From contig NZ_BEWM01000003.1 in the NCBI RefSeq assembly GCF_002723935.1, positions 372,001-436,000 on the forward strand: a stretch of 64,000 nt of DNA. The letters run 5' to 3'. The DNA comes from Gluconobacter cerinus. GTDB lineage: Bacteria > Pseudomonadota > Alphaproteobacteria > Acetobacterales > Acetobacteraceae. The translations under genes were made by a program, and so were the position numbers. Of the stretch, positions 4,333-39,101 are shown piece after piece. The notes under the pieces were generated by a model, which saw only the letters and a program-made list of their open reading frames with translations, was not told the origin of the DNA and did not search any database. Position 1 is the stretch's first letter; each line of letters opens with the position of its first letter.

Positions 4333-5226
4333 CTATCTGAGCGGCAGAAAGAGGTCTGCGATCGCTTCGTGCTCGGGCACCTCTGGAAAGAATGTGATGC
4401 GCTGGCAGTAGAGGGGGAAGTCGCGGGCTTCCTCCCCGCTTTGCGGAAGCCAGTCGCGGTAAAGATAGAGAGCCGCGTTTTCCAGATCGTCGGTATTACC
4501 TACGACCCGCAAGACGGCGCACCTCCCGCCTGGAATGGTGCTGGACATAATGCCCTCATTGCCTGCTTCGAAGACCCGTTCAGTCCCAACGCATAAATCC
4601 AGTCTGTAATCGCTCGGGCTTGTAGCCCGCGGGTCACAACGGAATATGTTGAACGTCTCGCTATTCCGCGGCACAAGCCCGACCGCTTTTCGCCATCTGA
4701 TAAACCGCTGAATAGTCGTCCCGATCGTGGCGGGAGGTCCACGATGCTCCATGATTGCCACCCGAATGGGTGACCCCTCTCTAATGGTCACATCACTTGT
4801 ATTGAAAATCTGTTGCATGCGCTTGTTCCTCGCATTGATGAGAGGCTCGAAGGCCTTAAGCCACGGCTCCCATTCAGGAGATTTTCGGAACGATGACGGC
4901 GACTGCCCGAACCGTTGCCGAAAAGTACGGGCAAAAGCATCCGGGGCGTCGTAACCGGCATCCATAGCGATCTGCGTGACACTCTGATCATCACGATAGG
5001 CCAGCCGAAACGAAGCGCGCTTCATTCGACTAAGTTGAATGTAACGATGAACTGACAGTCCGAAGATCGCCGTGAATTGCCGGTGGAAATGGAACTTCGA
5101 GAATGCTGCGACCTTACTTAATGCTTCCAGGTCCAGCTGATCGTCGAGATGACATTCGATATGATCGAGCACCCGCCTCATTCTGGCATGGTAGGTTTGG
5201 AGTGCTGGCGTCACTATGGGCTCCAT
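4333..5226 (-). CDS. AraC-family regulator with GyrI-like effector domain
   Basis: About 297 residues from the ATG at 5226 (an in-frame ATG at 5289 would add 21 residues not usual in the family). The order is the Rob/SoxS type: two helix-turn-helix motifs first (LEALSKVAAFSKFHFHRQF and VTQIAMDAGYDAPDAFAR with the FGQSPSSFR tail), then a C-terminal GyrI/SbmC-like domain from about residue 135, recognisable from its VRIAIMEHRGPPATIG-like opening and the closing PLYCQRITFFP block. The GyrI-like domain binds small hydrophobic or drug-like molecules in relatives. No obvious target gene is divergent from it, since the neighbour upstream is a toxin-antitoxin pair on the same strand. Confidence 0.85.
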   Translation of the reverse strand: MEPIVTPALQTYHARMRRVLDHIECHLDDQLDLEALSKVAAFSKFHFHRQFTAIFGLSVHRYIQLSRMKRASFRLAYRDDQSVTQIAMDAGYDAPDAFARTFRQRFGQSPSSFRKSPEWEPWLKAFEPLINARNKRMQQIFNTSDVTIREGSPIRVAIMEHRGPPATIGTTIQRFIRWRKAVGLVPRNSETFNIFRCDPRATSPSDYRLDLCVGTERVFEAGNEGIMSSTIPGGRCAVLRVVGNTDDLENAALYLYRDWLPQSGEEARDFPLYCQRITFFPEVPEHEAIADLFLPLR

Positions 5227-5391
5227 CGTGGCGACAGTATCTAGACATGTAGCTGCAAAGACCGCCCGACCGATCTTGCGGTTCGACATGAGACTACTCG
5301 ATACACTCTGGCATGAGAGCTTCTGGCGCTTGAAGTGTCGAAGTGGAGCATCCGAGATAAAGCGGTATTATTCTGACGGCAGTTTCTGCAT

Positions 5392-5775
5392 TCAGGAACA
5401 ACGCATTCGCTTGATGGGATAGTGATCCATTTGCCCGTCTTCCGAAAGAAATGTGGCGTGTTCAGCTTCCGCCTGCGCCATCAGGAGATGGTCAAACGGA
5501 TCACGATGATGCAGAGGCAAAGACATCAGGATCTGCAAGTGTTCGGGCTGTATTGGCAGCAGAGAGAAACCTTCCTCAGGAATGGCTGCCAGAATATCGT
5601 TCATATTCGCATCCAGCTTTCCGATACGGATTTTGATCGCAATCTCCCACAGTGACACGATACTCACCAGAAGATCGTGGGCCGGATCTGCAATGATTTC
5701 CCGTGCATGCTCACCCAGTCGGTCGGAGTCCGAAAGCCACCAGAGCAACGCATGCGTATCGAGTAAAACCTTCAC
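5392..5775 (-). CDS. PIN-domain toxin (VapC-like)
   Basis: A 127-residue PIN-domain ribonuclease. The acidic residues of the metal site are visible: D6 in LLDTHALLWW, E44 in SLWEIAIK, and D92/D95 in RDPFDHLLMAQA, with a further acidic residue in FLSEDG near 112. Proteins of this subgroup cleave RNA and arrest growth when free of their antitoxin. It overlaps the upstream antitoxin gene by four bases (ATGA type), the usual coupled arrangement. Length is normal. The system lies next to a recombinase and an McrBC locus, so it may stabilise the island. Confidence 0.88.
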   Translation of the reverse strand: MKVLLDTHALLWWLSDSDRLGEHAREIIADPAHDLLVSIVSLWEIAIKIRIGKLDANMNDILAAIPEEGFSLLPIQPEHLQILMSLPLHHRDPFDHLLMAQAEAEHATFLSEDGQMDHYPIKRMRCS

Positions 5776-6044
5776 AGGTCGCGTTCCATACTTTCAAGAA
5801 CGTCGAGAGGTGTCTGATCAAAATCTTCGCTCATTCTGATCCGCCCTCGTAATGCGCCGGGTTGACGACGGGGGCGATAGGAAGGAGCTGGCGGACGCAG
5901 TTCAGCAACGACCTGATCGTGAGACGTCACGAGGATCGTACGGCCCTGTCTAACCTGACGCAGATACGCTGTCAGGTTTCCCCGGAACTCCCGAACACCG
6001 ATTTTCTGTGGGATTGGCGCGTTATCTGAGAGATGCTCGCTCAT
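5772..6044 (-). CDS. Phd/YefM-type antitoxin
   Basis: A 90-residue antitoxin with the Phd core: IGVREFRGNLTAYLRQVRQG, a beta-strand of the TILVTSHDQVVAELRP type, then a charged flexible tail that would wrap the toxin. I choose the ATG at 6044 because it has a strong AAGGAGGAG ribosome site a few bases upstream; the ATG at 6068 lies in the operator-like region. It is translated just before the PIN toxin with a four-base overlap. Confidence 0.87.
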   Translation of the reverse strand: MSEHLSDNAPIPQKIGVREFRGNLTAYLRQVRQGRTILVTSHDQVVAELRPPAPSYRPRRQPGALRGRIRMSEDFDQTPLDVLESMERDL

Positions 6045-6055
6045 GGTCTCCTCCT

Positions 6056-6080
6056 TGTGTGTCATCATACCATGTACACA
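6056..6080. promoter_or_regulatory. Possible operator of the toxin-antitoxin operon
   Basis: An imperfect inverted repeat, TGTGT ... ACACA with a matching inner part around CATACCATG, lies directly upstream of the antitoxin start. Phd-type antitoxins autorepress by binding such sites. This is a sequence observation with the role inferred. Confidence 0.35.
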
Positions 6081-6118
6081 GAAGGAGGAGATAGAGAATT
6101 CCTGATGCCTATTCGATT

Positions 6119-6691
6119 TCAGAGGTCAGTGGCTTCCGACAGTGCCAGCGCGTCCTCGACATCAACCCCAAGGTACTGAACTGTACTATCCAGTTTTGAA
6201 TGGCCTAGCAGGATCTGCACGGCCCGGATGTTGCCGGTTCGTTTGTAAATCATGGCAACCTTGGTTCGGCGGAGCGAATGAGTTCCATATTCCCCGGGGA
6301 TCAGTCCTACCGCCTGAACCCATTGATCCAGAAGCCGGGCGTATTGCCTTGTGCTCAGGTGAGCTTTGGCGCTTTGGCGGCTAGGAAAAACATACTCATT
6401 CAAGCCACCACCTCGATGCTCCAGCCACGCCCGCACGCTTTCTCGCGTTGTTTGCGTAATCTCGAACTGCACAGGCCGCCGGGTTTTTTGGTGGACAACC
6501 ATAGCTCGGTGGCGCACCTGACCGCTGATCACGAGGTCTCCGATACAAAGGCTGACAAGGTCGCAGCCTCTGAGCTTGCTATCGAGAGCAAGATCAAACA
6601 GAGCCTTGTCTCTGATACGCTGTTCGCTCCCCAGCCAGAACCGAATAGCCCAGACGTGCTTTTCTTTGAGCGCCCTCTTGGCGCCAACCAT
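6119..6691 (-). CDS. Tyrosine recombinase, catalytic domain only
   Basis: A 190-residue protein carrying just the catalytic domain of the phage integrase family. The active-site residues are visible: R41 in SKLRGCDLVSL, H138-x-x-R141 in YGTHSLRRTKV, H164 in LLGHSKLDSTVQYL and the nucleophile Y173. The N-terminal core-binding domain and arm-binding domain are absent, as in a family of short recombinases found on alphaproteobacterial plasmids and islands. The start is preceded by an AGGA site, so the short form looks native rather than truncated. It may mobilise the neighbouring island or resolve multimers. Confidence 0.85.
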   Translation of the reverse strand: MVGAKRALKEKHVWAIRFWLGSEQRIRDKALFDLALDSKLRGCDLVSLCIGDLVISGQVRHRAMVVHQKTRRPVQFEITQTTRESVRAWLEHRGGGLNEYVFPSRQSAKAHLSTRQYARLLDQWVQAVGLIPGEYGTHSLRRTKVAMIYKRTGNIRAVQILLGHSKLDSTVQYLGVDVEDALALSEATDL

Positions 6692-7071
6692 TTTTCCTGT
6701 GTTTCAAGGCACGGACGCTTTTAACGTAGGCGATGGAAAACGAGTTTTCTTCTCCATGATATGTCCTCCTGATCAGCTGCACATGCAGCAATCAGAAGTT
6801 TGAACGAGGATATCGGCGGATAACGAGGACGTTGCAGACCGTCCGCTTTCCGGAAGCTTGAACGGCTCCGCTTATTACCGACATGAAGGCGTGAGCAGCA
6901 GGTCCGCTTACGCCCTCATATCGGACGTTGACGCTTGGACACGCGCTCCCGTACAGCGGACGTAGCTCACGGCTTACATAAAATTGCCTACCCCAATCCC
7001 GCCACAGTTTAGGCTATTGACAAGAAATTTCTCTCAGAAGAATGTTTCTTTTTATTGCGAAGGAGGATGTC
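6692..7071. other. Intergenic stretch with spaced GTCCGC/GCGGAC motifs
   Basis: No gene is visible. The stretch holds several copies of GTCCGC, TCCGC or GCGGAC spaced by roughly 20-60 bases (about 6838 to 6962), a small GAAAAC-GA-GTTTTC hairpin at 6735-6748 and, at its right end, a TTGACA box at 7017-7022 that is a probable -35 element for the next gene. Confidence 0.4.
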
Positions 7072-7554
7072 TTGTCAGCGACACTAAGTGACGAAGAAAT
7101 AAGCAATATCAAAGAAACGGCCGGGGCTGAAGTAAAGTCAATTCTTGATAAGTTAGAAAAAGATTACCCTGGCGTAACAGAGGGGCTGGCGACGGCGGTA
7201 GGTGCAGGTATTGGTGGTGCAGGCTCTCTAGCCGCTCTTTCCGCTTTAGGATACTCGGGTTTATCAGCTGCGGGTATTACCTCCGGACTAGCGACAGCAG
7301 GAGCGGTAGTAGGAGGCGGTATGGTGGCCGGAATAGGGGTTCTAGCCGCGCCGGTCGCTGTCTTGGGCGTGATTGGTTATGGGGTGGCAAAACGCTACAA
7401 GAGTGCAAAACTAGCAGCGGCTCTAGGGCAAGCAATTGGCCGACTTTACGACATACAAAGCCGCCTAATAGCCAATGCCGAGTTTTTTAAAGAGGAAATC
7501 GCAAGCATTAAGGCGGTTATTGATACCCTCAGCAGAAAAAAGGCCAGCGAGTAA
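7072..7554 (+). CDS. Unknown glycine-rich membrane protein, first gene of a two-gene module
   Basis: I do not recognise a named family. The best start is the TTG at 7072: a perfect AAGGAGG ribosome site sits five bases before it, whereas the ATG at 7042 has none. The 160-residue product has a charged helical N-terminus (residues 1-40), a long glycine- and alanine-rich hydrophobic core (about 45-115) with repeated small-xxx-small motifs such as GAGIGGAG and AGITSGLATAGAVVGGGMVAG, and a helical C-terminus. The core resembles in pattern the eukaryotic Ifi-6-16/ISG12 membrane proteins and other glycine-zipper helices, which insert into membranes; this is a pattern match, not a homology claim. The next gene starts one base after its stop codon, so the two are translationally coupled. 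Confidence 0.7.
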   Translation: MSATLSDEEISNIKETAGAEVKSILDKLEKDYPGVTEGLATAVGAGIGGAGSLAALSALGYSGLSAAGITSGLATAGAVVGGGMVAGIGVLAAPVAVLGVIGYGVAKRYKSAKLAAALGQAIGRLYDIQSRLIANAEFFKEEIASIKAVIDTLSRKKASE

Positions 7555-7555
7555 T

Positions 7556-8929
7556 ATGCCGTATCAACAAGAAATTAAGGGAATAAAATATCTTCAAAAT
7601 AGATCGAAAAATATAGAGCAATCTCATGATCAAATAAAATCATCCTTATCTGATCTTCGTAGTTTGCTAGAAAATATAGATATAGGCGAAAAAAATTTTG
7701 ACAATACGAAACACCATAATCCTCCTGATGCTTCCGATGAACCCGTTTTCGTCCCGTTGCAGACCACTCCTCTAGATCAAATTTTCGCTGAAGCCGAAGC
7801 CCAATATCCCGCCCCGTTGGGGCTGGAAGATATTCTCAGTATTCAGGATTTTGCTGAGGCGGAGAAGAGAGTTGATGCTCACGTAATGGAGTTCAATCGA
7901 CGTTATGGTCTAGATGGCTGGGACTATGCTATTGCTTCTAGCTGCGGTTTATTCGCAGCAATGCTAGATATATTTTTTGTCTCTGCACCACTCAAGCCTA
8001 CAGCGGACTTTAGTCGTCATGTTGATGGCCTGTTCAACCGTGGCGTGCAGGAAGCATTCAATAAGATAATACCGCCTGATATCAGCAAAAAATTAAGTAA
8101 AAAATTTCCTATCGGCGCCCCGGACACATCTATAATTACCGATCTTATTGGTGCACCTGATAAAGTATTAAATCCCACAAATCATCGCTTGAGATCGTTG
8201 GCTCACGATCCATTACTGGGACTATTTTTCGGCATATTCGACATGATAAATGGTACGTGTACTACTGTTGTTGATGGAAAAATACTCAGCATTCCGAGTT
8301 TGAAAGGAACGTCTGAAGGAAACTTATTTCAGCTAATAGGACGCATGTTAGGTCATCTACTGTCTGATGTTAATGCCCCCACAGCCAATGGTAATCGTGG
8401 GATGGGTCTGCCTGCTCCATTCATGGGTTTGTTACGAATGTTCGAAAAAGTTCCGGTAGGAGATTCGAATTTTGGCCGACAAATTGAGTGGATGTTTGCA
8501 AATGGATACGACTTCCGGCAATTTGCAGCTACCAGCGTACCAATGCTGATAATGGAAACATTGGTGAGGGTATTCTATACTATTAAACAGATGAAAATTC
8601 ACGGAGCATCATTTGGAGAAACCATCCTAGATACAATGCCGGCGAGAATTAATCCTCGTTTTCGAATTATGTTGGCAATCTCTTATGGTGCAAGCAGTGC
8701 AGTCAACGCTGGAAAAATATACGTCACGGGTAATATTTTAAACGCGAATTACGCTTCTTGGATGGGACTGACTTGGAATGGATTTCACGCTCTCAAGTGG
8801 TCATTATTACAGCGTCATTTGAATCTTTGGAGCGAAGTTGAGGCAAAAGAAATTTCCGAACTGGAAAATCTTGTCTCTAAAATTGATGGCTTGGGCGGCC
8901 GAGCCGGACAACTGCCGATTTCTCAGTGA
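7556..8929 (+). CDS. Unknown membrane-associated protein, second gene of the module
   Basis: A 457-residue protein starting at the ATG directly after the stop of the previous gene (TAATATG). Residues 1-90 are hydrophilic and helical. Residues 110 to 425 carry several hydrophobic segments. A conserved-looking histidine pattern, HRLRSLAHDPLLG followed about 70 residues later by GHLLSDVNAP and GMGLPAPF, is reminiscent of the HR..TH and G..HLL.D...G.PL..P motifs of YdjM-type membrane metal-dependent hydrolases; I infer a possible metal site but cannot prove it. The region has a lower GC than its flanks, a sign of transfer. It lies between a recombinase and an McrBC locus, which suggests a defence or conflict role shared with the glycine-rich partner. 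Confidence 0.7.
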   Translation: MPYQQEIKGIKYLQNRSKNIEQSHDQIKSSLSDLRSLLENIDIGEKNFDNTKHHNPPDASDEPVFVPLQTTPLDQIFAEAEAQYPAPLGLEDILSIQDFAEAEKRVDAHVMEFNRRYGLDGWDYAIASSCGLFAAMLDIFFVSAPLKPTADFSRHVDGLFNRGVQEAFNKIIPPDISKKLSKKFPIGAPDTSIITDLIGAPDKVLNPTNHRLRSLAHDPLLGLFFGIFDMINGTCTTVVDGKILSIPSLKGTSEGNLFQLIGRMLGHLLSDVNAPTANGNRGMGLPAPFMGLLRMFEKVPVGDSNFGRQIEWMFANGYDFRQFAATSVPMLIMETLVRVFYTIKQMKIHGASFGETILDTMPARINPRFRIMLAISYGASSAVNAGKIYVTGNILNANYASWMGLTWNGFHALKWSLLQRHLNLWSEVEAKEISELENLVSKIDGLGGRAGQLPISQ

Positions 8930-9328
8930 GAGAAACGGTCTCCTCGTTCGAACAGTTTTCTGAGCTTGATAAACTACTTTTTCGCCAGGCCACCAGTCTG
9001 ACGGCATTACGGTTGACCGTTTAGTTGCGGGTCAAATCCTGACCCAATGTCCTTGTCGGACCCGCCGGGATTGACGGGCAGTCCGTTCTGCATGTTTTTC
9101 GCCTCAAAGTAGACTGACCGCCTCCCCCCCCCCCTGATCTGCCTGTCCGCTCAATGATACAAGAGAAGATAGGCGGAATGCCCTCTTTACCGTCATCCCA
9201 AGCCTGTTAACGTCATCCTGCAAGCACAATTCGATGTAAATGGTGGCTCTGTGCAAATAGGGGGATGATAACGTTGGAAATCGATTCGCAGTCATGCGGC
9301 GAAGCTAAAGTTATCCGTCGGCAGTTGG
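8930..9328. other. Intergenic stretch with a poly-C tract
   Basis: No convincing gene. It contains an uninterrupted run of eleven C at 9124-9134 in a GC-rich context and one GTCCGC motif. The run could be slippery but does not lie in a gene or an obvious promoter. Confidence 0.4.
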
Positions 9329-9712
9329 ATGCCTAATAGTGCACGTGACATCGAAGCCTTCAGAGCATTCTGGGCACTAGATGCAGGAGCTTCTGCTGGG
9401 CCAGATACTTTGTTTACTTCGTGTGCGGAGGCCATCAGAATTCGACACGTGGAACGCTTTAAAGATCCAGATCTGTTTGCCAAATTGATCAGCAGGGTGG
9501 ATGTGGGTGGACTAGCGAGAAACCGTGAAGTTATGACCCGCAGTTTCCCCGAAGGACGTGGTGCGCTGACTATCTTGCATCGCTTTGATTTATTGTGGTT
9601 GTGCGAGTATTCTAAACAGCCATTCGCTAGCAAGCACCCGGGACGTGACAAGGGAAAACCGGTTAGCCCCGGAGTTCCCAACACAAGGAGATGTGTCCAT
9701 GCGCGAGGCTGA
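9329..9712 (+). CDS. Small unknown ORF overlapping the start of mcrB
   Basis: A 127-codon ORF whose end overlaps the mcrB start by 14 bases, with the mcrB ribosome site inside it. The composition is protein-like (charged and aromatic residues, LTILHRFDLLWLCEYSKQ near residue 85), but I recognise no family and see no ribosome site before the ATG at 9329. The frame is open back to a stop at 9269. It may be a small accessory gene of the Mcr locus or the remains of a larger gene. Confidence 0.4.
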   Translation: MPNSARDIEAFRAFWALDAGASAGPDTLFTSCAEAIRIRHVERFKDPDLFAKLISRVDVGGLARNREVMTRSFPEGRGALTILHRFDLLWLCEYSKQPFASKHPGRDKGKPVSPGVPNTRRCVHARG

Positions 9713-12332
9713 ATTCCGTGCCGGCTTAGAAAGGCGTCCTGGGCCTGGCGTGCCGTTGACCAAGGAGACCCCTAGTCTGACACGTGAGTCCGTGGAAACG
9801 GTCATGCGTGAATTTGATCAAAGCAGTGACGCGTTTATGCGCCAACACGGGTTTGCGGCGAATTTCGATTACGTCGTTTTCCGTCCGGGCGAACAGCAAC
9901 GTTATCCGGCCAAAGCGGTATTTTTAGTTGCCTATAGTTCAATTCCCGGGAACCCCAATCTGACTGTTAGAGACCAGCGCGATACGTTCCGGGACACTAA
10001 AGGCGGAGCAATTCATACCGAATTTCGTCGCTTGGGCTACGAGGTCGAAAACCGGCGATTTGGTAGCAAGGAAGTTCTCGCTGAGCGTATCCGCCAACAC
10101 TTGATCGCGCACTATATCGCCCCTGCTCGCCAGCGCGGCGACCACCTTGTCACAATCCGGGCGGGAGATGTTCACAAGGAACTTGACCTGACCAACCAGA
10201 TGCCCAACGTGTGTCAGACGATCGCAGGCAAGAAATTTCGTAACGCGGCGAACCTGGGTGAGCCTGAGATCCTTTCAGGCCCTGTCCGCGAGCGCGGCGG
10301 TAACATGGTTTACCGTTTCATTCTGCTCCCCAGTCAAGAACAGGGGGTATCGCCTGGTGACGAACAGATCCTTGCGCGGTTCGATGGTAATCCAGAATTT
10401 CGCGCCAGGCGCCCTGACTGGACCCGCGAACAGCGGGCTGCATTTTGCCGGATGGCGCAAGCCGTTCATGCGGTCGGGCTTGACTGGTACCAGACCGACA
10501 TTCCGCAGACCCGGTTCGGACGAAAATCGTCTCAGCTTAGACAGGCCGAGGGTACGCTCGGTGCATTACTGTGCAGAATGACGGAACCATTCCTGCAGTT
10601 CACGCACCAGAGTAATTCGCTTGGTCTGGCGGGGGATTACCCCCTTGATGAGAATGGCGCTGAACGATTTGAACGAATTATTGCCGATGCTGAGCCAGTC
10701 ATCCGAAGCTGGCAAGAAAATCGGCCGGAGCGTCAAGGTAAGTGGCCCGATGAATATAGCCAGCCTAACCAGGCAAGCTCCGGAAGCACAGACATGAGCA
10801 TGCCAACCAATCTGATACTTTACGGGCCGCCTGGCACCGGAAAAACCTATAACACGGCACTGGAAGCGGTGAAGCTGTGTGATGGCACCGCCAGCGATCC
10901 GGAAACCAAAGAAGGTCGCTCTGCTCTGATGGCGCGGTACAATGAACTGGTCGCCGACAAGAGGATTGCCTTTGTTACTTTTCACCAAAACTATGGCTAC
11001 GAAGACTTTGTTGAGGGTCTTCGCCCTGTACCCATTGGGAACAACGACGGGGAATCTGTTGGATTCCATCTGCAACCAGAGCCGGGCATTTTCCGACTGA
11101 TCGCAGAACGTGCAGAAACAGGGAGTCTTGTTGTAGGCAGCGAGCCTTTGAATGTCGTTGATCGAGCGGTTTACAAAATGTCGCTGGGAGAGGTCGCTGA
11201 TTCAGCTGATGATTTTGTTTTTACGGAATCTATCAAGAATAATTACTGCCTTTTCGGCTTTCGCGACATCGACTGGACCAACCCGCGTTTTTCGGATCGG
11301 GAAGAAATATTCTCAGAGGTGAAAAAGCAATTTCCCGATGAGGACGTCACCCCGAACAAGGGTATCGTGCAATCGCCCGATGTATTCCGCAATCAGCTGC
11401 AAATCGGCGATATTCTCATTATCTCCAAGGGCAATTATAGGTTCAGGGCCATTGGAATTGTCGAGGGCGAATACGAATATGCGCCTCGTCCCGATGGCCG
11501 GTACTGCCATCGTAGGAAAGTGCGATGGCTATGGCACAACAAGGACGGTCTGGAGGTCAGCGAATTGTACCCTCCAAAGTTTATCCAAAAAACGCTTTAC
11601 CGGCTTAAGGGCGCGGAACTCAACCGGGCCCTGATTGCACGACTGATTTCAGAAAGCGGTGGTCAGGGCACGGAAGGCGATCCGTTACCGCACGTTCTCA
11701 TTATCGACGAAATCAACCGTGCCAATGTGTCGAAGGTCTTTGGTGAACTCATCACGCTGCTGGAGCCTGACAAGCGGGCAGGTATGGAAAACGCGCTTTC
11801 GGTGTCTTTGCCCTATTCAAAACGGCAGTTTTCCGTTCCTGCCAACCTTCACATCATCGGAACAATGAACACGGCAGACCGCTCTATCGCACTTCTGGAT
11901 ACGGCATTGCGGCGGCGTTTCAATTTCCGGGAAATGGCTCCTGAGCCTAGTTTGCTGGCGGCCGCTAGTAAGCTGACAGGGATCAATCTTGCCCACGTTT
12001 TGGCCACCATAAATGATCGCATTGAATATTTGCTCGACCGGGAACATCGCATCGGGCATGCCTTCTTCATTGGTTGTGAAACTGCTGAGCAGGTTCATGA
12101 TACCATGCGCGACAAGGTCATCCCGTTATTGCAGGAGTATTTCTTCGAGGACTGGAGCCGCATTCAGGCGGTGCTTGGCGATGGCTTCATCGGCAGCCGA
12201 ATACTCAAATGCCCGGTTGGAGAAGGTGAGGATAAACCTAGCTGGTTCGTTCAGTCTGAGTTCAGTCTCGATGCTTATACTCGCAAACTTGGCCTTACCT
12301 CGACCGACCTTCTGCAGGAGGCAGAGGCATGA
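9699..12332 (+). CDS. mcrB: McrB-like AAA+ restriction subunit with inserted EVE-like domain
   Basis: The start is the ATG at 9699, with AAGGAG nine bases upstream; 877 residues. Residues 1-115 include a region (YVVFRPGEQQRYPAKAVFLVA) like the sulfur-/DNA-binding head of ScoMcrA-type enzymes. The motor has Walker A GPPGTGKT at about residue 376, Walker B LIIDEINRANVSKVFGE near 666, the McrB-type GTMNTADRSIALLD near 720 and arginines in LRRRF. Between Walker A and B, at about 495-630, lies an extra domain (VFTESIKNNYCLFGF ... GDILIISKGNYRFRAIGIVEGEYEY) with the look of an EVE/PUA-fold reader of modified bases. With McrC it should form a nucleotide-driven complex that cuts modified DNA. The 71-base gap before mcrC is longer than usual. 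Confidence 0.88.
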   Translation: MREAEFRAGLERRPGPGVPLTKETPSLTRESVETVMREFDQSSDAFMRQHGFAANFDYVVFRPGEQQRYPAKAVFLVAYSSIPGNPNLTVRDQRDTFRDTKGGAIHTEFRRLGYEVENRRFGSKEVLAERIRQHLIAHYIAPARQRGDHLVTIRAGDVHKELDLTNQMPNVCQTIAGKKFRNAANLGEPEILSGPVRERGGNMVYRFILLPSQEQGVSPGDEQILARFDGNPEFRARRPDWTREQRAAFCRMAQAVHAVGLDWYQTDIPQTRFGRKSSQLRQAEGTLGALLCRMTEPFLQFTHQSNSLGLAGDYPLDENGAERFERIIADAEPVIRSWQENRPERQGKWPDEYSQPNQASSGSTDMSMPTNLILYGPPGTGKTYNTALEAVKLCDGTASDPETKEGRSALMARYNELVADKRIAFVTFHQNYGYEDFVEGLRPVPIGNNDGESVGFHLQPEPGIFRLIAERAETGSLVVGSEPLNVVDRAVYKMSLGEVADSADDFVFTESIKNNYCLFGFRDIDWTNPRFSDREEIFSEVKKQFPDEDVTPNKGIVQSPDVFRNQLQIGDILIISKGNYRFRAIGIVEGEYEYAPRPDGRYCHRRKVRWLWHNKDGLEVSELYPPKFIQKTLYRLKGAELNRALIARLISESGGQGTEGDPLPHVLIIDEINRANVSKVFGELITLLEPDKRAGMENALSVSLPYSKRQFSVPANLHIIGTMNTADRSIALLDTALRRRFNFREMAPEPSLLAAASKLTGINLAHVLATINDRIEYLLDREHRIGHAFFIGCETAEQVHDTMRDKVIPLLQEYFFEDWSRIQAVLGDGFIGSRILKCPVGEGEDKPSWFVQSEFSLDAYTRKLGLTSTDLLQEAEA

Positions 12333-12402
12333 ATGTCCATATGCTTATTTTTCACAAAGGGCTGACCAATCTTACTGATCGGGTTATCGCTCGTTTCCAT
12401 TC

Positions 12403-13701
12403 ATGACGCATCTGACTATCCATGAATGGGGACGGACGAGCGTTTATAATGGCACCGGCTCCGCGCCGAAGGAGTCCTTCACCCGCAGCCAAGCCAATAC
12501 TCTGCTGCGGGCTGCGCGATCACATGCGCTGGCCAACCAATTCGGGAGCAATATTCTTGTCGATCGTTACAGCGAAATAAGAGCCCAGCAGGTTGTCGGC
12601 GTTATTGCCGCCCCGGGATGCAGTCTTGAAATTCTGCCTAAAATCGATGCCGCATCAGATGAGAGCGATGAAACACTCCGCACCCGGCTTGTTACTATGC
12701 TCGATGTGGCGCTCGGGCTCAAAATCGGAGACGGACAGGCTCTAGCCATGGCGCGCCAGAAGGAAACCTTTCTCGACATCCTGATTCGATTGTTTGCTGA
12801 TCGCTTTTTGGCCGAGGCGCGTCGTGGCCTGCCCCGCGGTTATGTCGCACAAGAGGAAGATCTCGCAACGCTGCGCGGGCGGCTTGATGTCATTCGCCAG
12901 TTCACTCACCATGCAGTGCGTCCCGACCGCTTAGCGTGCCAGTTTGATATTCTGATACCAGATACGCCTCTTCTGCGTGTGATGAAAGCTTGCGTTGTGA
13001 CGCTGCGCCGCTACGCTCGCGTATTGGAAACGCAGAGACGACTTGATGAGCTGCGTTTTCTTCTTATGGATGTCGGGGATGTTCCAATTAATGCTTTGCC
13101 TTGGAGCCAAGTGCGCATCGACCGGACGAGCCGCCGTTGGGAAACACTCTACGTATTGGCAAAGCTGTTCCTGAAACGCGAATGGCAAGGGACCAACCAC
13201 GACGCCAAGGCTGGTCAGGGAATCACTCTGTTATTCGCCATGAACGATCTGTTCGAAGCCTATATTGCCACCTTGTCTCGCAAGGCACTGCAAGGTAGCG
13301 AGCTGACGGTTCATTTACAGGGTGGATTGCTCTATTGCCTAATGGAAGAAAGCGAGAATGGCCGGGCACGTTTCCAAACGTCACCTGACATCCTCATCAA
13401 GCACCATGGACAGACCCAGATCGTGATAGATACCAAATGGAAGCTCATTGGTCGAAATCCCGAAGATAAGAAACGCGGCGTTTCGCAATCCGACGTCTAT
13501 CAGATGATGGCGTATGCCCGCCTCTATCAGTGCCGCGATCTGCTCTTGCTATATCCCCATCATGTCGGTCTTGGCTCCGATGCTTTGAATGCTAGTTATG
13601 CCATTATGGCGGGAGATGAGCGTTTGCGGATCGCAAGCGTCGATCTTTTGCACGGATCGGCTGCAGTTGCACAGCGACTAAGAGAGCTCATTTCTCGATG
13701 A
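12403..13701 (+). CDS. mcrC: McrC-like nuclease subunit
   Basis: A 432-residue McrC homologue. The N-terminal half is the McrB-binding region with the typical VVGVIAAPGCSLEILPKI segment; the C-terminal part is the PD-(D/E)xK nuclease: the acidic residue in TSPDILIK (about residue 328) and the D-x-K in QIVIDTKWK (about 341-343), followed by DVYQMMAYA. It follows mcrB on the same strand. No in-frame start lies upstream because of a stop at 12376, so ATG 12403 is the start even though no strong ribosome site precedes it. It cuts DNA when the McrB ring stimulates it. Confidence 0.9.
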   Translation: MTHLTIHEWGRTSVYNGTGSAPKESFTRSQANTLLRAARSHALANQFGSNILVDRYSEIRAQQVVGVIAAPGCSLEILPKIDAASDESDETLRTRLVTMLDVALGLKIGDGQALAMARQKETFLDILIRLFADRFLAEARRGLPRGYVAQEEDLATLRGRLDVIRQFTHHAVRPDRLACQFDILIPDTPLLRVMKACVVTLRRYARVLETQRRLDELRFLLMDVGDVPINALPWSQVRIDRTSRRWETLYVLAKLFLKREWQGTNHDAKAGQGITLLFAMNDLFEAYIATLSRKALQGSELTVHLQGGLLYCLMEESENGRARFQTSPDILIKHHGQTQIVIDTKWKLIGRNPEDKKRGVSQSDVYQMMAYARLYQCRDLLLLYPHHVGLGSDALNASYAIMAGDERLRIASVDLLHGSAAVAQRLRELISR

Positions 13702-13959
13702 TGAATTACATTAGTAAGCAACAGCTAGACGAATGTTTTGATGATCTTGCCATGGTTTGGTTACGGCAGCTTCGTTGGGAAGTGTAGGTTGCCCGAAAGT
13801 ATCAAGGATTATTGAGGCGATCAAAGCGACGTGAAAGTTTTTGCGCTGGACATATATGTACATGTCCGGTTTCTTGATTGCCTTACAAAAAGTGGTCGTT
13901 CCGTTTCCCCCGCTTGGCAGACGCTGGACGTTTTTCTGCTGCAAGGATTGAACCATTCC

Positions 13960-14601
13960 TTAGCGCTTTAAACCCGTTCCAATAACCTCATCAGACCCGC
14001 TTGAATCCGCATTCAAGGCTTTCGAAAGAAAACAGGCAACGTCTTTAGTGCTTCCTGGGGCTGCCATCTCCAGAAGTACAGCACCCTCGACGATGCTTAA
14101 AATCGCAGCAGCCCGACCGGTCTCAGTGTGGCCTGGCGATGGCGCTAGCTTGCTGTCTATCCAATCGGTCCATGATTTCACAGCGCCCGGTCCAATGCGA
14201 TCATATGGCGTTTCGCCACGTGCGCTTCGAGCTATAACCTCCGTCCATAGCTTCATGAAGGGAGCTATTTCAGGGTCATGGACCATTGCAAGAACGCGCA
14301 TGAGAAATTGTCCCGGTGACGAGCGAGCACCATCATTAATCCGCAAAAGTAGAGCGGACAACCTTGTGCTGACTTGTTCAAGGACATCAACAATAAGCTG
14401 GTCTTTTGTTCCGAAATAATAGATCAGCATACGATCGCTTGTGCCAATCTTCGCGGCCATACCTCTGAGACCAAGCGTAGCAATTCCCTCTTCAAGTGCC
14501 AGGTCCGCAAGAATACTTGTAAACTGGACTTTGCGGGACCGCACCTCATCGCTTGATTTTGATGGTGGTGCAGACGGCGAGGGAAATTTCAGCGTTTTCA
14601 T
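13960..14601 (-). CDS. TetR/AcrR-family regulator
   Basis: A 213-residue TetR-type regulator. The DNA-binding domain is residues 22-70 (ILADLALEEGIATLGLRGMAAKIGTSDRMLIYYFGTKDQL), with the family-typical Y-Y-F-x-x-K-D turn. The remainder is an alpha-helical ligand domain without a recognisable subgroup. A pair of half-sites TGTAGCAC (14610-14617) and GTGCTACA (14645-14652) lies just upstream of its start and may be its operator. The region upstream once carried a membrane protein, now only debris, so the original target may be lost. Confidence 0.85.
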   Translation of the reverse strand: MKTLKFPSPSAPPSKSSDEVRSRKVQFTSILADLALEEGIATLGLRGMAAKIGTSDRMLIYYFGTKDQLIVDVLEQVSTRLSALLLRINDGARSSPGQFLMRVLAMVHDPEIAPFMKLWTEVIARSARGETPYDRIGPGAVKSWTDWIDSKLAPSPGHTETGRAAAILSIVEGAVLLEMAAPGSTKDVACFLSKALNADSSGSDEVIGTGLKR

Positions 14602-15004
14602 CCGAATTATGTAGCACTCGCTTCATAAGGAAGATACGTAGTGGGTGCTACATATGAGAGAACTTGATATGTTGCGCCCAAAGCAATTTGCAATTTGTGC
14701 TCTCCTGGCTGCTTTCTTCTGGGGATACGGCCTTGGCGCCTGGATCGCGCTTGCAATGGCGAGCCGTTCAATACGAGCCAAGCAATCAACGCCAGTACCG
14801 TGAGCAATGCAAACGCTCCGCCCCACGACGATAGAGGAGCAAGGCCCACCAACGTCTGGTTTTTTTCTTCTCGCGCGATACCAGACGTTCTACCTTCTCC
14901 CTCAGAGCTGTATGCAAGCTGGAAGCACGTACCGTGCTCAGAAATCTGAAATTGAGTGCGAATATTTACGGCCGTGTCTCACGGAGCAGTCTTGTTGATA
15001 ACGG
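14602..15004. other. Intergenic stretch with probable transporter debris
   Basis: On the minus strand, around 14770-14870, a short frame reads VGLAPLSSWGGAFALLTVLALIAWLV, which looks like the final membrane helix of a major-facilitator-type transporter, without the rest of the gene. It is next to a TetR gene, as efflux pumps often are. The half-sites TGTAGCAC/GTGCTACA at 14610-14652 lie in the same stretch. Low certainty. Confidence 0.3.
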
Positions 15005-37280: not shown

Positions 37281-39101
37281 ATGACTGAACCTGTCCGGCT
37301 TGTTATTTGGGATCTAGATGAGACATTCTGGCCCGGCACTTTGACAGAGGGCGGTATCAACGAAGCCGAACATTTAGGGCATGTTGTAAGGGCATTAGCT
37401 GAGCGAGGAATCATTAGTTCCATCTGCTCAAAAAACGATTTTGAAGAGACAAAGTCAGTTCTGGAACGTCTAGGTGTATGGGACCTATTCGTTTTCCCAA
37501 GTATATCATGGGAGCCTAAGGGCCCTCGCGTTGCCCATATCGTCGAACAAGCCAAGCTGCGTGCGCCAACAATTATGTTCATCGACGATAATCCGATGAA
37601 CTTAGCTGAAGTTTCAGGCGCGGTACCAGGGATACAGGTATCCGACGAAAAGCTTGCTCCATTCTTACTCGATAATCCTCTTTTCGTCGGTAAAGCCGAT
37701 CCTGAGATGAAGCGATTGCATGATTATAAGCTTCTTGAAGTTAAGTCGGAGGCAAAGGCGAGTGCCGGTGATACCTGGCAATTCTTGCGCGAAAGCCGCA
37801 TCACTGTTGAAATCTGCTATGACTTGGAGGCTAACCGCGATCGCGCGATTGAACTGATTAATAGAACAAACCAGTTAAATTTTACAAAAAAACGCCTTTC
37901 TGAAAACATTGACGAGGCGAGGAACCAATTTGACGAAATTGTTAATTCAGGAATTTTCCATCACTCAGGCTTAGTTCGCGTTCGTGATAAATACGGTGAT
38001 TATGGATTTGTTGGTTTCTTCCATCAAACAAAACATAGTCAAGAAAACATTCTACACCACTTTTGTTTTTCTTGCCGTACACTAGGGATGTATGTCGAGA
38101 CTTGGCTTTACAGGCAACTTGAGTGCCCAAGTATAGAAGTCGTTGGAGACGTTCTCACTAATCTGTTTGACGAAACAAATCCAGTAGACTGGATCTCTTA
38201 TTATCGCGAAGAAGTCGAGGAAGGCGCCGAAGTGCACGATTATCCGAAGCTTCCTATCCAAATCTGCGGCGGCTGCGATATGGACTCCGTCCAGCATTAT
38301 CTAGCGCCAGCCACAGACGATTTCAGATTATTCACTAACACTGTACGACAGCAAACCGAGATTCGACGCGACCATTCCAGCATGATCCGCCGTTCGATCG
38401 AAGGATCGACTGAAGAAGAATGGAAGATTTTGAGTGAGATCGGCTTTATTGATGCAGATTTTGATACAAAGCTTAAAGACATAAAAAGTGGATTTCTAAT
38501 TTTTAGCTTCTGGGCAGATATATACTATTCAGATTATGAAATTGTCGGGTGCAAGGGACACACAACCTTTGCGATGAACCCGTTCAATTATCAAAACTTA
38601 GATAATGAGTATGAAGGAATTCTGAGGCATCAAGGGCGTTCAAAGGGCGAAATTGAGCAATTCAGAGCCGCAAAAGCAAATCTAAAATATTCTGGGAAAA
38701 TGAACGAAGGTACTTTTAAGGATAATCTGAATTATATTTTCAGCAATATCTCTACAGACGTAGATATTATTCTAATAAATTCAACAACAAAATTCCACGA
38801 AACAAACCCTGAATGGGGATTGATGGACCGACATTTGAAATTAAATAAGTACCAACGAGAGATTAGCAACAACTATGATAATGTCTCAGTAGTGGAAATG
38901 GATGACTTCATCCTTTCTTCCAGTGACATCGTAAGCTCCACTCACTTTACACGCTCAACGTACCAGCGGCTTGGTACCGCCTTGAAGAAGCGAGCCGTGA
39001 CGGGGATGCAAGACCGTGATAAAAATATTGAATATCTGAAGCGACGTATTTCTGAATTGCAGGCGGAGAACGATCGACTCAAATCTGGCGCAGTAGTTTG
39101 A
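37281..39101 (+). CDS. FkbH-like HAD-IIIC protein with C-terminal SGNH-like domain
   Basis: A 606-residue protein. Residues 1-150 are a HAD phosphatase-like domain with the catalytic DLDET motif (LVIWDLDETFWPGTL) and MFIDDNPMN as the acidic motif. Residues 170-330 match the FkbH acyl-transfer region (RTNQLNFTKKR, VRDKYGDYGFVGFF, FCFSCRTLGMYVET). Residues 335-575 are an SGNH-like domain with SSTHFTRSTYQRLG at the His block. A coiled coil closes the protein (DKNIEYLKRRISELQAENDRLK). FkbH enzymes load C3 units derived from glycerate onto carriers, and related fused proteins occur in polysaccharide clusters. It lies between the tRNA fragment and the phage lysis genes, on the opposite strand from all phage genes, so it is probably lysogen cargo. 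Confidence 0.82.
   Translation: MTEPVRLVIWDLDETFWPGTLTEGGINEAEHLGHVVRALAERGIISSICSKNDFEETKSVLERLGVWDLFVFPSISWEPKGPRVAHIVEQAKLRAPTIMFIDDNPMNLAEVSGAVPGIQVSDEKLAPFLLDNPLFVGKADPEMKRLHDYKLLEVKSEAKASAGDTWQFLRESRITVEICYDLEANRDRAIELINRTNQLNFTKKRLSENIDEARNQFDEIVNSGIFHHSGLVRVRDKYGDYGFVGFFHQTKHSQENILHHFCFSCRTLGMYVETWLYRQLECPSIEVVGDVLTNLFDETNPVDWISYYREEVEEGAEVHDYPKLPIQICGGCDMDSVQHYLAPATDDFRLFTNTVRQQTEIRRDHSSMIRRSIEGSTEEEWKILSEIGFIDADFDTKLKDIKSGFLIFSFWADIYYSDYEIVGCKGHTTFAMNPFNYQNLDNEYEGILRHQGRSKGEIEQFRAAKANLKYSGKMNEGTFKDNLNYIFSNISTDVDIILINSTTKFHETNPEWGLMDRHLKLNKYQREISNNYDNVSVVEMDDFILSSSDIVSSTHFTRSTYQRLGTALKKRAVTGMQDRDKNIEYLKRRISELQAENDRLKSGAVV

Follow-up and report, generated by a model that had tools for sequence, protein, structure and literature searches.

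A compact Bunzi-like gene pair in Gluconobacter cerinus with relatives on conjugative plasmids

Within a 64,000-nucleotide stretch of Gluconobacter cerinus DNA (contig NZ_BEWM01000003.1, positions 372,001 to 436,000; hereafter the window, whose own numbering is used throughout), two adjacent plus-strand genes, referred to here as A and B, form a coupled pair. Gene A (7072-7554) encodes a glycine-rich, hydrophobic, hairpin-like protein of 160 amino acids (aa), and gene B (7556-8929) a protein of 457 aa. Both reading frames are uninterrupted, running from the TTG at 7072 to the TAA at 7552-7554 and from the ATG at 7556 to the TGA at 8927-8929. The ribosome-binding site AAGGAGG (7060-7066) precedes the TTG of A by 5 bases, and the junction TAATATG (7552-7558) consists of the stop codon of A, a single base, and the start codon of B, in agreement with an initial annotation made from the sequence alone that had proposed a two-gene module coupled in this way. 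An alternative in-frame ATG at 7042 would extend A to 170 aa; most aligned homologues begin close to the TTG rather than to this ATG. Protein A has three hydrophobic Gly/Ala-rich segments (residues 38-56, 64-82, and 84-102) and protein B several hydrophobic segments together with HR...H and GHLLSD...GMGLPAP stretches, consistent with the membrane-associated look that the same annotation had ascribed to both. Its statement that the pair is lower in guanine-plus-cytosine (GC) content than its surroundings holds for B (0.420 compared to 0.541 in the window), while A (0.511) is only slightly lower; the low GC of the pair (0.443, with equal or lower values in 64/1243 pair-length sliding windows) is thus owed to B and not to A.

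To place the two proteins, we compared them with PADLOC models, using single-profile searches. B matched BnzB with an E of 1e-57, aligning residues 14-423 with positions 41-485 of the 504-position profile, and four B relatives scanned likewise gave E 6.5e-53, 1.7e-57, 1.8e-51, and 1.5e-77. A matched only the middle of BnzA (E 1.2e-5; profile positions 310-378 of 544), and three A relatives also matched BnzA (E 1.6e-6, 6.1e-9, and 4.5e-8). In the reverse direction, a profile of 94 A proteins was run against 4972 open reading frames (ORFs) from 97 sequences, some of which are copies of the window's own region, and recovered only A proteins and two long BnzA proteins, each encoded beside a BnzB (loci L025 and L091; E 9e-11 and 5e-10). 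When the matching region of these two BnzA proteins was shuffled, none of 1000 versions was recovered. The two-way profile matches and the shuffle control indicate that A corresponds to a BnzA of which only the hydrophobic core is left. Pfam and NCBIfam gave no family for A or B up to E 1, which does not support the Ifi-6-16 likeness initially suggested for A, and PHROGs returned only weak matches for either protein (best E 0.084). A also weakly matched the C-terminal stretch of LeoBC in PADLOC (E 0.0041; 2.1e-4 for the A of locus L003). Unlike the dynamin-like Leo proteins (LeoA, LeoB, LeoBC), A does not have the length for a GTPase domain, and the BnzA match was stronger each time; similarity in hydrophobic, helical composition may account for the Leo match.

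Bunzi (BnzA-BnzB) is a published two-gene anti-phage system, attributed to Millman et al. 2022. The pair is very probably a relative of it, which upholds the kinship with anti-phage systems suggested at the outset and at the same time overturns the initial impression that no described system had this form. As in Bunzi, the two genes are adjacent, on the same strand, and in the order A first; B is homologous to BnzB over most of its length, A to the central hydrophobic part of BnzA, and the invariant columns of B take in those of classical BnzB. In contrast to the long BnzA proteins (562 aa in L091 and at least 488 aa in L025, where the stretch edge truncates the gene), A comprises 160 aa and lacks both their long N-terminal part and their C-terminal extension. 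A review table places TerB in Bunzi (PMC10952713); Pfam called no TerB in the two long BnzA proteins, so that the label rests on this table, and A has no counterpart of the N-terminal (TerB-like) region of a full-length BnzA. B is about 25% identical to the L025 BnzB and falls on a separate branch. In a FastTree phylogeny of 60 proteins, midpoint-rooted without an outgroup, 36 window-side B proteins grouped with a support of 1.0 (including that of L024, whose partner is unseen) and 23 classical BnzB proteins with 0.90, while L092 lay outside both groups, closer to the classical side. Partner genes were inspected on the window side for the collected loci only (with no recognised A in L089) and on the classical side for L025 and L091 only, both long. 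Because A is short and matches only part of BnzA, and because B stands well apart from classical BnzB in the tree, the pair is filed, on sequence comparison, as a deep, compact Bunzi-like branch and not as canonical Bunzi.

A scan of genome contigs revealed 23 related loci (L002-L024), in 19 of which A lies immediately upstream of B on the same strand, and the initial expectation that the pair would recur as a unit in other genomes was thereby borne out. Among the others, one contig begins within the B reading frame (L020), one begins 170 bases ahead of B (L024), one carries two ORFs sized as in IS3 elements between A and B (L005), and one has IS3-sized ORFs ahead of B with no A found (L006); on a plasmid (L087), an annotated IS3 transposase likewise separates the two genes. 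A and B overlapped by up to 17 bases or were separated by up to 27, except in L005 (1463) and L014 (-146), where the longest B ORF begins inside A and the true start is uncertain. In L021, B is split over two ORFs. Host names in the record titles comprised Alphaproteobacteria, Enterobacteriaceae, Aeromonas, Pseudomonas, Thalassospira, Synergistaceae, Clostridia, and others. Since both genes, their order, and their coupling are kept in homologues, the pairing is beyond chance.

The predicted structure of B was of high confidence (predicted local distance difference test, pLDDT, 91.8) and mostly helical. Strands were confined to a single short pair, and the helices included one at the N-terminus (4-40) and a long one at the C-terminus (399-451); the model had no significant match in the PDB. 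The model of A, three Gly/Ala-rich hydrophobic segments followed by a long helix, was of low confidence (pLDDT 60.8). Averaged over the family, B showed hydrophobic stretches at 124-142, 220-238, and 324-342 and weaker ones at 283-301 and 372-390. Across 97 sequences reaching down to 23% identity, 22 columns of B were invariant by script (21 in the aligner's list), and nine of these are His, Asp, or Glu (D120, D123, D138, H210, H217, H267, D271, D319, and E334), compared to 60 such residues among all 457 of B (hypergeometric p 8e-4, uncorrected for relatedness). Such conservation would be in keeping with an active site or a gating site that may bind a metal.

Taken together, we favour, with some reservation, the view that A and B represent a compact, horizontally moving Bunzi-like defence member, in which B is the BnzB-type core and A a BnzA reduced to a hydrophobic hairpin. 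Family and genomic context make an anti-phage function of the pair likely. How it would act is a more tentative matter, for which an infection-triggered, membrane-acting effector complex is the likeliest candidate, at less than even odds. A, as an oligomerising glycine-zipper hairpin, and B, as a membrane-associated helical protein, would sit at the inner membrane as a single complex, with the invariant polar residues of B forming an active or gating site that possibly holds a metal. Phage infection would set off this complex, which would then depolarise or damage the membrane or hydrolyse a membrane substrate, so that the phage is halted and the cell sacrificed. Our search of open-access literature, in the parts available, found no mechanism for Bunzi; the papers list the system and either call its mechanism unknown or give none. 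Because A dispenses with most of BnzA and the alignment shows which B residues never change, the pair offers a small and handy entry to the Bunzi mechanism.

Several observations weigh against this interpretation. A spans about an eighth of the BnzA profile and is poorly modelled. One distant locus (L089) has a B and no recognisable A, and A may be dispensable in some loci. In addition, genes near the pair were not richer in PADLOC families at the 19 loci compared (27 among 119 near versus 47 among 126 far proteins, counted as families rather than proteins and with the far list inflated by UvrD-like GajB models). This comparison used 19 of the 24 loci L002-L025, ORFs of 90-1300 aa, and PADLOC matches at E 1e-15; L005, L006, L008, and L010 were left out as near-duplicates by eye and L025 as too short, and L007 and L009 were both kept though alike.

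The helix-dominated model of B, with its hydrophobic segments, and a Gly-rich A suited to helix packing would also be compatible with a pore acting alone, i.e., B (with A) as a ligand- or stress-gated ion channel without catalysis that opens upon infection and depolarises the cell, an alternative that we regard as unlikely. It is similarly improbable, in our estimate, that A and B amount to the smallest functional core of Bunzi. B would in that case be a metalloenzyme of the membrane whose fold has no solved counterpart, and infection would trigger it by way of the glycine-zipper hairpin only, the N-terminal (TerB-type) part of BnzA being absent. Sensing would then be a property of the two small-system proteins, A and B, with regulation a later addition by the larger BnzA.

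B was present in 1/26 genomes of the genus, namely the window's own. Of 398 genomes of the phylum, four had BnzB-family matches, two of which were weak (E 2.7e-4 and 5.9e-4). PLSDB contained a B relative in 493/72,556 plasmid records; the match spanned at least 80% of B in 463, and 437 of the 493 were typed conjugative. The commonest hosts were Enterobacter, Salmonella, Klebsiella, Escherichia, and Citrobacter. IncHI replicons were present on two of three enterobacterial plasmids examined, and the pair of one plasmid locus (L088) occurred at near identity in 16/5426 E. coli genomes, with 15 of the 16 places plasmid-borne. A classical BnzB query of PLSDB returned 486 records whose organism counts, the level at which the two sets were compared, were close to those for the window's B; among the rows listed, the enterobacterial ones were weak matches of about 29%. 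A Salmonella survey with PADLOC and DefenseFinder reports that Bunzi is often plasmid-borne and that half of those plasmids are IncHI1 (PMC11305592), and a pangenome paper describes Citrobacter freundii as enriched in Bunzi (PMC13379101). We infer that the Bunzi calls in these surveys take in the compact pair. The plasmid-borne relatives that were opened or listed are annotated merely as hypothetical or membrane proteins, for which reason the Bunzi label is useful.

Distant B relatives were also detected in 3/50,697 phage records, with an A-like gene near B in one of them (L093). Together with the conjugative plasmids, these are places where exclusion would pay, and both proteins have hydrophobic segments, so that A and B might instead act as a complex in the inner membrane that prevents phages from injecting their DNA (superinfection exclusion) and leaves the cell unharmed, with the invariant residues of B being structural or gating. 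We assign this entry block a low probability, because nine invariant His/Asp/Glu residues across distant branches exceed the needs of such a role and because plasmid records contain BnzB relatives much more often than phage records do. The B of L089 (4684-6257), from a Streptococcus suis prophage record, lies ahead of an ESAT-6-like gene and a large hypothetical gene; no A-profile match was found at this locus.

Two enterobacterial plasmids (L088 and L090) carry the same two genes, with a B about 56.6% identical to that of the window and annotated as a membrane or hypothetical protein. HipBA follows the pair in both, and a trypsin-like protease gene precedes it in L088; the window's pair has neither as a neighbour. 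This gene, for a trypsin-like serine protease, is found immediately ahead of A in two IncHI plasmids, with HipBA downstream of B (L088, 6628-7284, Pfam Trypsin E 4.4e-6; L087, 5289-5945), and its product may have joined A and B as a third component in this lineage.

In the window, the pair lies between a recombinase and McrBC, as initially described. The minus-strand tyrosine recombinase frame (6119-6691, 190 aa) has a stop codon upstream in frame; over 6119-6760 this stop falls near the N-terminus, and five relatives (L076-L080) are without it; intact copies exist. Next to it, also on the minus strand, is a PIN-domain toxin with a Phd/YefM-like antitoxin (5392-6068; PIN E 8e-17, PhdYeFM E 1.3e-5, below the Pfam cut-off), and downstream of the pair McrB-like (9585-12332) and McrC-like (12403-13701) restriction genes follow on the plus strand. 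The five relatives, none with B, share the PIN/Phd/recombinase module over about 1.5 kb at 89-92% identity, and its neighbours vary: in L078, a reverse transcriptase (34-1383) matching that of retron Ec67 (E 1.3e-74) stands on the flank that A occupies in the window, and in L079 a type I restriction M subunit lies on the module's other side. One relative (G399), again without B, has McrBC at about 96%. The location of the pair looks like a spot of defence-gene turnover. In a Thalassospira locus (L011), PDC-S64-like and IetS-like candidate defence genes (11427-14706) lie directly downstream of the pair. Among the 119 near proteins, 20 were scanned singly and gave matches in L003 (RtcR-like), L011 (IetS, PDC-S64), L012 (PDC-S08, but a 5'-nucleotidase by Pfam), and L016 and L022 (weak mad8 matches, that of L022 being Rho by Pfam), and none in the rest.

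The PIN/Phd genes in the window, HipBA beside the plasmid pairs, and the lack of PADLOC-family enrichment would suit a module outside defence, such as a toxin-antitoxin pair or another stabilising or stress membrane module of plasmids and islands whose Bunzi likeness reflects shared ancestry with a different role. The BnzB-level homology to a published anti-phage system argues against this, and we consider it a poor prospect.

It is very improbable that B is a remote YdjM/DUF457 (PF04307) member hydrolysing phosphate esters at the membrane, a link drawn initially from its histidine pattern: of 46 PF04307 loci (L029-L074), 34 gave a protein passing the motif filter and showing similar-looking HR...H and GxxxHxxxD-like stretches in a membrane protein, but B had no Pfam match up to E 1, and hhalign of the 34-protein alignment against the 97-sequence B profile scored 1.11 and 0.85, below the reversed (2.90 and 2.63) and the maximum shuffled-column scores (4.74 and 10.37; 20 versions each), with the motifs unaligned. 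The scores for 22 classical BnzB proteins, which had no separate shuffled controls, were 1.02 and 3.06, and sub-regions compared without realignment or shuffles reached up to 15.3 (probability up to 0.52%), again with the motifs unaligned. A literature lead tying DUF457 to a defence pore proved to be a false match to DUF4579.

Further inspection of the surrounding DNA yielded no Rfam matches in 5000-14000, and counts of promoter and terminator patterns did not exceed the shuffled mean. An 18-nucleotide inverted repeat flanking the pair (6798-6815 and 8936-8953) was rejected as an element end because the DNA common to 4/5 relatives continues past it, to 6892-6914. Elsewhere in the window, a 606-aa protein (37281-39101) in a low-GC stretch showed a weak HAD-hydrolase match (E 0.022). 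Short intergenic sequences at about 6840-6929 and 9106-9176 flank the pair and recur dispersed in other genomes of the genus; they may mark the edges of a cassette.
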